Origin: Alphaproteobacteria bacterium
Lineage (GTDB): Bacteria; Pseudomonadota; Alphaproteobacteria; Micropepsales; Micropepsaceae
DNA length: 64,000 nucleotides
Assembly (NCBI GenBank): GCA_028871795.1
Contig: JAGWMG010000003.1
Coordinates: 186,001 to 250,000, forward strand
Direction of reading: 5' to 3'
Part shown: positions 58,426-64,000 of the stretch, piece after piece
Layout of the letters: each line of letters starts with the position of its first letter
Position numbering within the stretch: position 1 is the first letter of the stretch
Notes under the pieces: generated by a model
What the model was told of the DNA's origin: nothing
Databases searched by the model: none
The model's input: only the letters and a program-made list of their open reading frames with translations
Made by a program: the position numbers and the translations under genes

Positions 58426-58584
58426 GAGTCGGGCGCATTTTCGTTCGGCTATGCAGCGGCCGACCACGGCCGCGCCTTGCTAGAGGTGATTGTTCTGCCG
58501 ATTTCGTCTCCTGCGCTGCGTGCCCGGCTGCGCACCGGGGCGCTTGCTATCCCGTGCGACCTTAAGTATTTGATCTCGCAAGAC

Positions 58585-58624
58585 GGACAGGTGGCTGAGC
58601 GGTTGAAAGCACCGCACTCGAAAT
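58585..58624 (+). pseudogene. Truncated tRNA-Ser (anticodon CGA), 5' half only
   Basis: GGACAGG acceptor strand, D-arm GCTGAGCGGTTGAAAGC, the anticodon-stem strand CCGCA and loop CTCGAAA are intact. The expected 3' stem TGCGG is replaced by TACAG, and no variable arm, T-arm or acceptor 3' strand follows in the next several hundred bases. The acceptor strand is identical to that of tRNA-Ser(GGA) at 10427. The break at the anticodon arm coincides with a fall in GC content to the right, which suggests insertion of foreign DNA. Confidence 0.8.
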
Positions 58625-59080
58625 ACAGGCCGGGCGTTTGAAGTGGATTCACTCTGCGCGCAAACCGTGTGATCAGCAAACAGGTTAGCGCCCGTACAGC
58701 TAACGTCTCTTCACACCTAATCGAACGTGATTTCACGTAGGTCTGGTCCAGTATGTGGTCCCAAAATGCGGCGTTAGAATCACGGCTACAGTGCAATCGC
58801 GCCCAGACCACTAGCAGCGGCATACTGAATTCGCCTACTCGGGTAATTCGCCGTCGCGAGCGCCCATCAGGCGGCAGCCCTAGGTGCATTTGCGTTCAAA
58901 CGAACTGCTGATATTGGGCGACGACATGGCCTCAGGATTACCACAACCAAGCACTATGTGATGGCAATCACCGGATAATTTGGCTCCTTCGGCAGGAATT
59001 GACCTGCGGCGCCCACAACCTTGTCTTGTCGTTAACGCTCAGGCACAATCGCCTGAAAGTCTTGGGGCAGGGGGGAAGGA
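58625..59080. other. Non-coding stretch at the left end of the AT-richer region
   Basis: About 455 bases. No reliable gene; open frames on the minus strand cross the broken tRNA and have no sensible product. GGCAGGGGGGAAGG lies just upstream of the first transporter gene. I searched for a tRNA 3' half and for an integrase start and found neither. Confidence 0.5.
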
Positions 59081-60181
59081 ATGCGTAATACTCGACTTTG
59101 GGCCTGGGTAGCGGCGTTTATAGCGATCTGCGCTGCGGCATATTTCTATTTTTTTAATCCTCTCGCACCGCAACAGCCAACGATAAACGTTCTCGCCTGG
59201 ACAGGCTATGAGGAACCGCAACTTACTCAAGCTTTTGAAAAGGCCACCGGCATTCGAGTTAATGTCAAGACATATGTTGGCGGCGATCAGATGTATTCGA
59301 TCTTCTCGACAACAAAGAACACCTACGATGCAGTGATCGTCGATACGGAATATCTCAAGCCCCTCCATGATGCCGGACGGCTCTCGGCTCTTGAGGCAAA
59401 TTCGCTGAACTACACGGGTTATTTCCCCTATTTTGTCACCTTCCCAAGTGCGCATTTCGGCGGTGAGACGTTTGGCGTCCCCGTTCGCTTTGGCGTCAAT
59501 GGGATTGTGTACAACACAGACCATTTTTCGGAGCAGGATGTGCAAAGCTATGCCGTTCTGATGTCTGATCGCGCGAAGGGGCACGTGGGAATTTGGGACT
59601 GGTATTTGCCGAGCATGGGTGTCCTAAGCAAAGCCGTCGGGAATCACGACGCGTATAATTTAACGGAGGCTCAGTATATAAGCCTCCTTAAAGAGATGCG
59701 GGAGTTGCGTCCACAGGTGGCGGCAATTCACCCGACACCACCCGACATGATTGCTGCGCTCGCTGATGGCCGAACTTGGCTTGTTCCCGGCGTCGGAGAT
59801 TGGGTGGCGTCCGTGCTCGAAGCCCAAGGCAAGCACATTGACTGGGCCGTGCCGAAAGAGGGGGGTATTATGTGGGTCGAGACGCTAACGATCCCATCCG
59901 ATGCGCCACATCGCGAACTCGCCAAGAAATATTTAGAGTGGATGATGTCACCTCAAGCGCAGGCTATACTGACTCAACTACACGCGTACAATTCCAACGC
60001 GACTAATCGCCTGACGTACACGTTCCTAACAGCGGCCCAACGTCACCGGCTCAAGGCCGATAGCGACAAGAACGTCGAAGCAATGATCGAGAATCTCAGT
60101 CTGCGCGAGTTGCCAAAAGCGCAGGACCCGCGTCGTTGGCAAAACGATTGGCAGGGGTTTAAGGCCAACACCCTGCATTAG
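59081..60181 (+). CDS. Polyamine-type ABC transporter substrate-binding protein
   Basis: A 366-residue PotD/SBP_bac-like protein. An N-terminal hydrophobic segment (residues ~6-26) is a signal anchor. The binding fold begins INVLAWTGYEEPQLTQAFEK and includes TYDAVIVDTEYLKPLHDAGR, FGVPVRFGVNGIVYNTDHFS and GIWDWYLPS (~170-178). It should deliver a small cationic or related solute to the permeases at 61882-63437. Codon and base use are AT-richer than the main window. First gene of a five-gene operon. Confidence 0.85.
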   Translation: MRNTRLWAWVAAFIAICAAAYFYFFNPLAPQQPTINVLAWTGYEEPQLTQAFEKATGIRVNVKTYVGGDQMYSIFSTTKNTYDAVIVDTEYLKPLHDAGRLSALEANSLNYTGYFPYFVTFPSAHFGGETFGVPVRFGVNGIVYNTDHFSEQDVQSYAVLMSDRAKGHVGIWDWYLPSMGVLSKAVGNHDAYNLTEAQYISLLKEMRELRPQVAAIHPTPPDMIAALADGRTWLVPGVGDWVASVLEAQGKHIDWAVPKEGGIMWVETLTIPSDAPHRELAKKYLEWMMSPQAQAILTQLHAYNSNATNRLTYTFLTAAQRHRLKADSDKNVEAMIENLSLRELPKAQDPRRWQNDWQGFKANTLH

Positions 60182-60247
60182 GTAGTGCGGGGCGATCTGT
60201 TCTCGAAGCCGCGTTCAAGGAAGAAGGGGCCGAAGGCGCAAAGATAA

Positions 60248-61909
60248 ATGGGCAGCGCAGACTCGATTGCCAGCGGAAGTGTGAATTCGACTGGCGCAGG
60301 CTTCGACATCATCGGGTTCTTGAGCAATCCGGCCATCCTCAAGCTGATTGGTGTTCTGGCGATCTTGGCGACGTTCTATGCGCTGATTCCTGAACGTCTC
60401 CGCTCCACGCACGCGAATTCCATGTTTGCCCTGATCGGAAGAGCGCTTCGCCCTTTGGCTTGGTTGCTGTTGAAGCCTTTGCAAGCAGTGAACTCAATAA
60501 TCCCACATTATCTGCGGAGGTCCGCGCATCCTTTTGTCCGAATACTGCACCGACGGGAAAGTGCATGGGTTGCGGTTGTTGGTGTTGCTCTACTTATACT
60601 ATTTTATTGGAGTCCGACGCCGCATCCGAAATTCGCGGCTTGGGTGCATAACGAAGTCACGTTTGCTGTTCTAACCGCTCTTCTCGTTTGGTATATCTTG
60701 TGGTGGTTGGCCAAGGATGCACCGAGTGGCCGCTCTAGCGGCCCGCTCACTCATGTCATCGCGTGGCTGGGGTGGGAAGAGGACCGACTATATAGCAGGC
60801 CGAGCGCCACGACAGTATCGAAGGAAGTCCTAAATTTTCTCACTTACGCGCGTGGTTTCGGAGCAGTACCAAAGCTCTATAGCTCCAATGGTGTCGCATT
60901 TGATTTGCTAATCGCGGACATGGAGTACTTGCCATATTATTATAAGGCCGACCGGCTTGAGGATTTGACGGGTCTAATTCTACCAAAATTTGCTCCCTTC
61001 ATAAACACACTAAAAGGGGGCGAGACGACGCGTGCGGGTTTCGTTATGGGGATTCCCTTACGTTGTGGCTTTCAGGAAATTCTCATTAGTAACGAAGTGC
61101 GCGATGCGCTAATGCCGACACGACAAGTGATGCTGAGTTACAAGGACTTGAAGATAGAGGACATACTCGCACTCGACCCGACCGGACAAACAAAAATCGG
61201 CATATGGAATTGGTATCTACCGGCCCTATCAGTTCTTTTGGCTGTCTATGGAAACGGTGCATGCCATCTCGATGATGTGTGCCGTTTTGATGAAACAGAA
61301 GTGCGGCGCGTCCTTGACCAGATTATGAGTCTTGGAATCGCAAATCGTCTTGTCTTTATGAATTCGGTCGAAGAAATCTACGTGACTGCACGTGATCACA
61401 ACCTCGCTGCGGTCTACGGCGCAGGCAGTTGGGCACTCCCTGCCCCGTTCGAGTCAACTCAAGCAGTGTCAGACGCCAATTTCATTGAGGAATGTGCACT
61501 GCTCCCGGCGATCCCTACAGAGGGTTTGTTCGCCTGGATTGAATGTGCGACGATCCTATCGGACAGTAAGAGCTCGGATCGCAATCGAGCAATCGAGCTA
61601 ATAAAGTACTGGCTCAGCAACGAAACCCAGAAGGAGTTGATGTTTGGGCGCACTTTGCGAGCCCTCCCAGTAACGACCGAGGCTCTACAGTTAGCTCGAA
61701 ATAATTACCGTGGCGTGCCCCCTGTTCTGGTCCTAGATCAAATCGTCGATCACGACCTGAAAATGAAACATGATGTGAAGATCGTCCCCCGACGAATTCC
61801 GCAAACTCTGGACGGTAAAGTGTACCGTGCGGATGAACGCCTTCGGTCAGCTTGGGAAATGGCGTGGTACGAGTTCGAGCAATGGCACAAAAAAGCGGTC
61901 CACAGCTGA
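60248..61909 (+). CDS. Membrane-anchored substrate-binding-like protein (unusual fusion)
   Basis: A 553-residue protein. Residues ~1-160 carry three hydrophobic segments (~30-47, 107-121, 138-154) with basic loops. From ~168 the sequence parallels the previous gene: IAWLGWEEDRLY aligns with LAWTGYEEPQLT, DLLIADMEYLPYYYKADRLE with DAVIVDTEYLKPLHDAGRLS, and GIWNWYLPALSVL (~318) with GIWDWYLPSMGVL. So a complete binding domain is fused to a membrane domain, unlike ordinary soluble binding proteins. It could be a tethered receptor, a second specificity, or a sensor for the transporter. The stop overlaps the next permease start by 28 bases. Confidence 0.8.
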   Translation: MGSADSIASGSVNSTGAGFDIIGFLSNPAILKLIGVLAILATFYALIPERLRSTHANSMFALIGRALRPLAWLLLKPLQAVNSIIPHYLRRSAHPFVRILHRRESAWVAVVGVALLILFYWSPTPHPKFAAWVHNEVTFAVLTALLVWYILWWLAKDAPSGRSSGPLTHVIAWLGWEEDRLYSRPSATTVSKEVLNFLTYARGFGAVPKLYSSNGVAFDLLIADMEYLPYYYKADRLEDLTGLILPKFAPFINTLKGGETTRAGFVMGIPLRCGFQEILISNEVRDALMPTRQVMLSYKDLKIEDILALDPTGQTKIGIWNWYLPALSVLLAVYGNGACHLDDVCRFDETEVRRVLDQIMSLGIANRLVFMNSVEEIYVTARDHNLAAVYGAGSWALPAPFESTQAVSDANFIEECALLPAIPTEGLFAWIECATILSDSKSSDRNRAIELIKYWLSNETQKELMFGRTLRALPVTTEALQLARNNYRGVPPVLVLDQIVDHDLKMKHDVKIVPRRIPQTLDGKVYRADERLRSAWEMAWYEFEQWHKKAVHS

Positions 61910-62688
61910 TAGATCGCCTTCCGTGGGGGGCGCTCTGGTTTCAGGTTCTGGCCGCCGGTCCGGCGGTTGCTCTTGCGTTTGGGCAGATGTTGTGGACGGT
62001 CAATAGACTTCAGCCCGTGTTTTCTCCGAGTTGGCAGCCGCTCACCACGGTCGCAACAAATCCAATCGTCATTCAAGCGATTTTGACGAACGCCGCAATT
62101 GCCGCTGGCGCGGCGATAATTGCGGCTACGGCTAGCTGGCTGATCTGCGTAGCACTTGTTACTCGGACATGGCTGGTCGGATTTGTTGCGCCGCCGTTAG
62201 TGCTCTCGTTCGTCGTTCATCCGACGTTGCGCGCCCTTGCCTGGGGTGAAGTCGCTCAAAACCTACCAATGCCAAACAACATGACCCTGGCGATTTATGC
62301 AACAATCGCGCTCGGGGCGACGATTTTGCCAATGGTCGCGGTCCTTCCAATCCTCTCAGCCCTCCGCTGTATCCACCAATATCGCGACGCAGCAAGAAAT
62401 TTGGGAGGGCGGCCTCGCACATTTGAGAGGAAGATTCTGTTTCCATTTGTCGCATTATCGCTGCTCGTGGGAACGGCAATCGGCTTCTCGATGGCAATGT
62501 TTGACCCCTTTGTCATCCGCGTCGTTTCACAAGGATTATTTCCAAGTGTCGGATCAGTGGTCGCGGACTTTCTTGCAATTAACGATTGGGGACGCGTGTC
62601 CGCGCTGTGTACGTTTGTTTTTCTTCTCACCACGGGAGCCTTTGTGATTGCTGTGCTCGTGATTTCACTGCGCGAGGTTAGGCGATGA
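61882..62688 (+). CDS. ABC transporter permease (PotB-like)
   Basis: A 268-residue binding-protein-dependent permease with six helices. The EAA-type coupling loop is YRDAARNLGGRPRTFERKIL (~residues 162-181). It starts at the ATG at 61882 inside the preceding gene; an upstream ATG at 61852 is unlikely. Forms the transmembrane pore with the next gene's product. Confidence 0.85.
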   Translation: MAQKSGPQLIDRLPWGALWFQVLAAGPAVALAFGQMLWTVNRLQPVFSPSWQPLTTVATNPIVIQAILTNAAIAAGAAIIAATASWLICVALVTRTWLVGFVAPPLVLSFVVHPTLRALAWGEVAQNLPMPNNMTLAIYATIALGATILPMVAVLPILSALRCIHQYRDAARNLGGRPRTFERKILFPFVALSLLVGTAIGFSMAMFDPFVIRVVSQGLFPSVGSVVADFLAINDWGRVSALCTFVFLLTTGAFVIAVLVISLREVRR

Positions 62689-63437
62689 GGAACCCGCCTG
62701 TCGCCTGGGATGCCCCACGACTGCCGTTAGTCGGGACAGGTGGAATTGTTCTGTTGGTTCTGATTCCCATCGCAACAATTGTCATCTTGGGTTACTCGCA
62801 ACTCTCAGCCGTAAGGCCTTACCTAGCGGTTATCGATGTCCCGATTAGTGTTGTAATGGGACTTGCTGTTGCGGTCGCCGTTACAGTCGCTTCACTCTTC
62901 ATCGCTGCGGCAATTCGCTGGGCGCGCTCGCCCTTTCCGATGTGGGCTTATACGGTATTTCTTACCCCAGCAGCCATACCACCGTTGTTGCTAGCATTCG
63001 GATATGCAGGTGCAGCAAATATCGGTGGCGTACAACAGGGGCCGGTGCTTGTTGCGGTAGCTCAGTTTGTCGTGTTCCTACCACTAGGCGTGTTCGCTAC
63101 GTTGAGGCGGGTCACTGCGCTTTCCGATGACCTGATACCGGCTGCGGTCAACCTCGGCGTAACGCCGATTTCAGCTATACTCACTGTGGTCGCACCCCAA
63201 ATAATGCGGGAATTGGTCCTCATTGCGACGGCTATTTTCATTCTTGGCTTCTCTGATGCAGTCTTCACGCTTTTTCTTGCGGGCCCCACACCAACGTTTG
63301 GTCAGGTGATGAATGGTTTGAGCCTCGGCGCCGCAAATAACTTGGCGTTCGCAGTAGGGATTTTCTATGTGTGTATCGTTGTGTTTGCCATCATGGTAGG
63401 CACTTTTGTTGCCTTGCTTGGTAACGCACGGCGTTAA
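62685..63437 (+). CDS. ABC transporter permease (PotC-like)
   Basis: A 250-residue permease with six helices (GIVLLVLIPIATIVILGYSQ; VFLTPAAIPPLLLAFGYAGA). The coupling loop is LIPAAVNLGVTPISAILTVV (~residues 146-165), a degenerate EAA motif. It overlaps the previous gene by four bases (ATGA). Pairs with the PotB-like permease. Confidence 0.87.
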   Translation: MRNPPVAWDAPRLPLVGTGGIVLLVLIPIATIVILGYSQLSAVRPYLAVIDVPISVVMGLAVAVAVTVASLFIAAAIRWARSPFPMWAYTVFLTPAAIPPLLLAFGYAGAANIGGVQQGPVLVAVAQFVVFLPLGVFATLRRVTALSDDLIPAAVNLGVTPISAILTVVAPQIMRELVLIATAIFILGFSDAVFTLFLAGPTPTFGQVMNGLSLGAANNLAFAVGIFYVCIVVFAIMVGTFVALLGNARR

Positions 63438-63453
63438 GGGGGGCGTGCGGGCG

Positions 63454-64000
63454 ATGCTTCAGGTTTCGGACGTAACTTGCAGAATCGGTAATCGAGCGAT
63501 TATCGAACGAGTGACCTTTAAGGTCCCCTCGGGAGGCAAGCTTGCACTTTTCGGAAGCAGCGGTTCCGGCAAGACGACCGTTCTCAAGGTGCTTGCTCAA
63601 ACACTTCCACCAAGTGGCGGCACAGCTGTTCTCGATGGCGCATCACTTATTTCTGATCGGGGCCCTGCAAGAGGGATTATGGTTTGGCAGAATCATGTTC
63701 TTTTTGAACATTTGACTGTCGCGGAGAACGTAGCCTTTGGTTTGATTGCTCGGAACGAGCCGGAGGCCAACATCCGCAAGAAGGTTGATGAGATTCTAGA
63801 TAAAATCGGCCTGCCTGGCTTTGCTGGGCGAAAGCTCGCTGGCTTGAGCGGCGGCGAGCGTGCTCGTGTCGCGTTTGCCAGGGCTTTCATACTTCAACCA
63901 CCACTACTCTTGCTGGACGAAGTGTTTTCAAACATCGACGTAGCAACCAAAGCACTACTCTATGGCCTTATCGACGAATATGCGAAGTTACCGCGAAACC
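63454..64000 (+). CDS. ABC transporter ATP-binding protein, partial (runs off the right edge)
   Basis: The first ~182 residues are present. Walker A FGSSGSGKTT (~36-45), Q-loop VWQNHVLFEHLTV, signature LSGGERARVAFARA and Walker B LLLLDEVFSN are intact. The Q-loop-distal part and any TOBE domain lie outside. The start is the ATG at 63454 with AAGGGGGG ten bases upstream; GTG at 63445 is possible. Supplies energy to the two upstream permeases. Walker B reads DEVFSNID, not DEPLSALD, a mild divergence. Confidence 0.88.
   Translation, partial: MLQVSDVTCRIGNRAIIERVTFKVPSGGKLALFGSSGSGKTTVLKVLAQTLPPSGGTAVLDGASLISDRGPARGIMVWQNHVLFEHLTVAENVAFGLIARNEPEANIRKKVDEILDKIGLPGFAGRKLAGLSGGERARVAFARAFILQPPLLLLDEVFSNIDVATKALLYGLIDEYAKLPRN

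Follow-up and report, generated by a model that had tools for sequence, protein, structure and literature searches.

A domain homologous to the solute-binding protein (SBP) of a Pot-like ABC importer operon is fused to three predicted transmembrane (TM) helices in an alphaproteobacterium, and among the collections we searched the fusion is found in this one bacterium only. The operon stands at the end of the window, by which we mean the whole stretch of 64,000 nucleotides analysed. Its genes follow each other in the order SBP1, a 553-aa protein (hereafter TM-SBP2), permease 1, permease 2 and ATPase, all on the + strand (Table 1).

Table 1. Window positions of the operon genes, of the parts of TM-SBP2 and of the left end of the enclosing element
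Feature	Position	Strand	Description
Element left end	58584..58624	+	41-bp remnant, 5' part of tRNA-Ser(CGA)
SBP1	59081..60181	+	366 aa; PotD/PotF-like solute-binding protein with N-terminal signal/anchor helix
TM-SBP2	60248..61909	+	553-aa fusion: about 160 residues with three likely TM helices, then a divergent SBP domain
TM helix 1	60332..60391	+	Residues 29-48; hydropathy
TM helix 2	60560..60616	+	Residues 105-123; hydropathy and charge count; Arg cluster 90/91/98/102/103 just before
TM helix 3	60656..60712	+	Residues 137-155; hydropathy; directly precedes SBP domain
SBP2 domain	60743..61882	+	Residues 166-545; hhalign and HMM against the SBP1 family
Permease 1	61882..62688	+	EAA-like loop DAARNLGGRP; weak NCBIfam CysT/PotC matches
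Permease 2	62685..63437	+	EAA-like loop PAAVNLGVTP; Pfam BPD_transp_1 5e-5, below cut-off
ATPase (CUT1/Pot type)	63406..64000	+	Runs past the window; ends at window-equivalent 64509 (full ORF L004 9406-10509)

A Pot-like importer with a second, fused binding protein

By its gene content the operon is a type I (Pot-like) ABC importer, with a solute-binding protein, two transmembrane domains bearing EAA loops and a canonical ATPase; the permease matches are weak. Walker A, Q-loop, LSGGE, Walker B, D-loop and H-loop are all present in the ATPase (Pfam ABC_tran 8e-29), whose start possibly lies downstream of the TTG at 63406. Permease 1 begins at TTG 61852 or, more likely, at ATG 61882. It had no Pfam match, and it aligns with permease 1 of a Candidatus Campbellbacteria operon at 24% identity (E 5e-9). 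Both permeases align to those of related operons, and their EAA-like coupling loops are intact. The genes are tightly arranged, with short spacers and overlaps. An initial annotation had described an AT-richer operon with two binding-protein domains, two permeases and one ATPase. Its placement of the genes holds, and so does the composition: GC is 53% in the operon against about 63% across most of the window, and GC3 is 0.53-0.59 in the operon genes against 0.74 in adjoining rlmJ. It missed that the ATPase continues past the window and that an integrated element encloses the operon. A 181-aa ORF antisense to SBP1 (59039-59584, - strand) is most likely a shadow frame.

The C-terminal part of TM-SBP2, residues 166-545, is a divergent paralogue of SBP1, as judged by alignments that extend the homology across the whole fold. 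BLASTP of SBP1 against the 553-aa protein gives an E value of 7e-20 over residues 166-461. Comparison by hhalign with a profile of eight SBP1-family proteins, from which the 553-aa protein was left out, gives 98.7% probability and an E value of 2.7e-16 over residues 166-545. The SBP1-family HMM gives the protein 64 bits, and none of 1000 shuffles exceeds 4 bits, while Pfam alone scores the domain at 22.4 bits against a 27-bit cut-off. The repetition of SBP1 motifs after a three-helix domain, pointed out in the initial annotation, thus reflects true homology; chance repetition is ruled out by the shuffles and the profile comparison, and at the level of sequence the same hhalign and HMM results speak against the possibility, also raised there, that the C-terminal part does not fold as a binding protein. 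Two AlphaFold2 runs, with alignments of four sequences, were unusable (pLDDT 38 and 34). Because SBP2 keeps 25 of 40 family-invariant positions, including D224, W322, W395, W430, E432, R515 and P518, ligand binding may persist. The family-invariant Asp of the DWYLP motif (D173) is Asn321 in SBP2, a change that argues for altered specificity.

Outside this bacterium, searches of about 1,660 genomes, of GTDB by pattern scan, and of plasmids and viral contigs revealed no second protein of the TM-SBP2 architecture. The genome sets, which partly overlap, comprised 100 relatives, 385 genomes of the class, 398 of the phylum, 289 of the class by profile, and 287 genomes of the Campbellbacteria phylum, for which the profile was built from SBP1 and the protein closest to it. 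For GTDB and the viral contigs the search used peptide patterns, a method that picks up close relatives only, and for plasmids it used tblastn; several SBP queries run against the viral contigs also gave no match. The matches in other genomes are plain SBPs in SBP-permease-permease-ATPase operons. Longer frames (453-480 aa) occur at some SBP matches elsewhere, and the in-frame SBPs examined there have signal peptides, mostly twin-Arg, and no TM domain. Neither the family collections and structures searched (Pfam, NCBIfam, PHROGs, PADLOC and PDB sequences) nor the open-access literature yielded a described family or fusion of this layout, in agreement with the initial annotation, which knew of none.

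SBP1 itself matches Pfam SBP_bac_8 (8e-24), PotD in the PDB (2e-22) and NCBIfam PotD (2e-22, yet far under the equivalog cut-off), so the PotD/PotF relationship first proposed is right for this protein. The operon shares this fold and homology, together with two permeases and one ATPase, with the CUT1-type type I polyamine importers PotABCD, PotFGHI and YdcSTUV. It differs from them in the extra TM-fused SBP, in permeases that fall under the Pfam cut-off, and probably in the ligand acids of PotD. SBP1 W40, W265 and E267 align with PotD W34, W255 and D257, but W174 and P177 stand at the positions of Asp168 and Glu171, which we take to be the acids that hold the polyamine ligand. SBP1 relatives at 31-35% identity are encoded in four-gene plasmid operons of Variovorax, Azoarcus, Ancylobacter, Agrobacterium and Leisingera, annotated as 'spermidine/putrescine' systems. 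Several of these adjoin nucleoside deaminase, creatininase or hydantoinase genes, and the Leisingera operon is amidase-linked. Since these two PotD acids are not kept and the nearest annotated relatives have such neighbours, the polyamines suggested earlier as ligands are doubtful; a small cationic or heterocyclic nitrogen compound would seem at least as well supported. The plasmid operons have the same SBP-permease-permease-ATPase order, but they lack TM-SBP2 and the window operon lacks their catabolic genes. The closest SBP1, at 47% identity, comes from a four-gene operon of Candidatus Campbellbacteria (PFAA01000017.1; L009 5946-9385), which has the same gene order but no TM-SBP2, and permeases only about 25% identical. 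That the closest relative is a CPR protein hints at transfer between distant lineages. For the host of the window operon, the adjoining DNA gives a weak pointer to Alphaproteobacteria.

Orientation of SBP2 and its possible roles

Which side of the membrane SBP2 faces depends on the N-terminal 160 residues. These matched no family or other protein, no permease family and not the SBP1-family HMM. In addition to the three helices of Table 1, the last two of which are separated by 13 residues, residues 57-88 form a weaker, amphipathic helix candidate. Lys and Arg outside the helices are unevenly spread over residues 1-160: loop 49-104 contains 10 of the 12 (hypergeometric P 0.03), and none occurs in the first 28 residues. 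By the positive-inside rule this loop would be cytoplasmic and, with two helices following, so would the SBP2 domain. With the Arg cluster inside, the domain is placed on the cytoplasmic side regardless of whether 57-88 crosses the membrane (N-out/C-in). The signal/anchor helix of SBP1 has the ordinary N-in/C-out orientation. An outward-facing SBP2 would result if segment 105-123 were not membrane-spanning. We consider that SBP2 most likely faces the cytoplasm, a prediction drawn from one sequence without homologues and at a modest P value. The initial annotation had suggested a built-in membrane receptor. The joining of a second binding-protein domain to membrane helices bears this out in part; an outward-facing receptor is at odds with the charges in loop 49-104.

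Taken together, these observations lead us to a tentative picture, in which the gene content, the homology, the tethering helices (by hydropathy) and the mobile element are observed and we infer the topology, the ligand class and the regulatory role. Periplasmic SBP1 would hand a small nitrogenous solute to permeases 1 and 2, with the ATPase powering import. One copy of the binding protein, duplicated and since diverged, is joined to three membrane helices at its N-terminal side. It would face the cytoplasm and, held at the membrane, act as an internal sensor: docked to the permeases or the ATPase, or close to them, it would tune import by the internal level of the same or a related solute (feedback inhibition). 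A small integrative, satellite-like element in a tRNA-Ser gene carries the whole operon. A sensor is favoured in that the operon retains a plain SBP1 that has a signal/anchor of its own, leaving a second receptor unneeded. SBP2 also has five cysteines against 0-2 in the SBP1 family, which counts for little given the counts of 3 and 4 in L008 and L010, two more distant relatives. We know of no description of such an inverted, regulatory binding protein in ABC importers. That a cytoplasmic SBP senses the imported solute and gates its own importer, and is spread by a satellite-like element, is on balance unlikely.

The main rival to an internal sensor, doubtful but a serious possibility, is that SBP2 is periplasmic and serves as a permanently tethered second receptor, adding a second specificity or concentrating receptors locally, in the manner of the domains fused in GlnPQ and OpuA. 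SBP domains normally act outside, tandem fused SBPs with differing specificities are known, and the pocket-type residues of SBP2 are largely kept, with one Asp changed to Asn. Where SBP domains are known to be joined to ABC importers, as in GlnPQ (PMC8025302), they face outward, which counts against an inward SBP2. GlnPQ and OpuA are alike with TM-SBP2 in having an SBP domain covalently joined to membrane helices, and possibly in having several receptors per transporter. However, their helices are the permease itself, whereas those of TM-SBP2 bear no resemblance to any permease and probably put the domain on the inner side; the two permeases are encoded by separate genes downstream of TM-SBP2, so this is not a fusion to a permease transmembrane domain of the GlnPQ/OpuA type. 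An outward SBP2 also requires either that 10 Lys/Arg lie outside or that one strong hydrophobic segment does not span the membrane.

It is also conceivable, though improbable, that SBP2 has no function of its own and is a paralogue, decaying or chimeric, that was recently put together on the mobile element. The lack of a second example in any collection searched fits such an origin, as does the loss of 15 of the 40 family-invariant positions. However, the 553-codon frame is intact, its composition is coding-like and foreign along the full length with a positional pattern like that of the neighbouring genes, the operon is tight, and the signature residues are kept. We also considered a start at GTG 60644, which would give a simple anchored SBP2. 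It is disfavoured because it shows no good ribosome site, would leave a gap of ~460 bp, and has like composition on both sides.

An integrated element with a variable cargo slot

The operon is part of a mobile element integrated in a tRNA gene. The 41 bp at its left end are an exact direct repeat of part of an intact tRNA-Ser gene at window-equivalent 71721-71761. This intact tRNA-Ser(CGA) (window-equivalent 71722-71811; L004 17722-17811) has a tyrosine integrase gene just before it. Sister genomes have empty sites, in which the sequence left of the repeat continues into the intact tRNA (e.g. G026, 89% over 134 bp). The element measures ~13.2 kb, from 58584 to about 71761 beyond the window end (L004 4584-17761), and encodes, besides the ABC operon, a 139-aa membrane protein, a terminase small subunit, a primase-like protein, an HTH protein and the integrase; no capsid genes were recognised in it. 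The primase-like protein (L004 12608-14917, - strand; 769 aa, with DUF3854) shows ~25-30% identity to various phage proteins along part of its sequence, and 38 of its 64 matching records are from Caulobacter phages.

The terminase small subunit and the primase-like gene are suggestive of a satellite-like element. Features in common with P4-like and PICI satellites are the tRNA attachment, the tyrosine integrase, the primase-like gene, the terminase small subunit, the lack of recognised capsid genes and a variable cargo slot; the likeness is one of gene content, and the cargo differs in being an ABC importer. A sister element of 10.5 kb occupies the same tRNA in G048 (L035, G048:C90; repeats at 2618 and 13086 of the reverse complement). 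Between the two elements the integrases are 79% identical, the terminase small subunits 63%, the 139-aa proteins 61% and the primase-like proteins 35%. A third element of the same family is split over two contigs (L036, L041; G003:C172, C147).

In the slot of the ABC operon, the sister element has two unrelated genes, for proteins of 467 aa and 153 aa with no Pfam match. The operon is thus exchangeable cargo, which explains why its GC is low and why the 100 relatives lack it. Cargo slots of P4 and P2 carry anti-phage systems (PMC9122126), and here the slot beside the attachment site is variable and holds unrelated genes in the sister element, which could mean that the transporter and an internal sensor serve the element itself, rather than nutrition, in phage defence or host competition. 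We find this very improbable: PADLOC gives only generic ATPase similarity for the operon, the sister cargo is no recognised defence system either (an SspC-like match of only 0.003), and the permeases and ATPase resemble an ordinary importer.

For the internal-sensor reading, an inward-facing SBP2 would mean that the fold of an external receptor has been turned into an internal sensor of the same transporter, a test case for how feedback control evolves. If the domain faces outward instead, it would be a new way of tethering a second receptor. Either way, the presence of a nutrient importer on a satellite-like element would widen the known cargo range of such elements.
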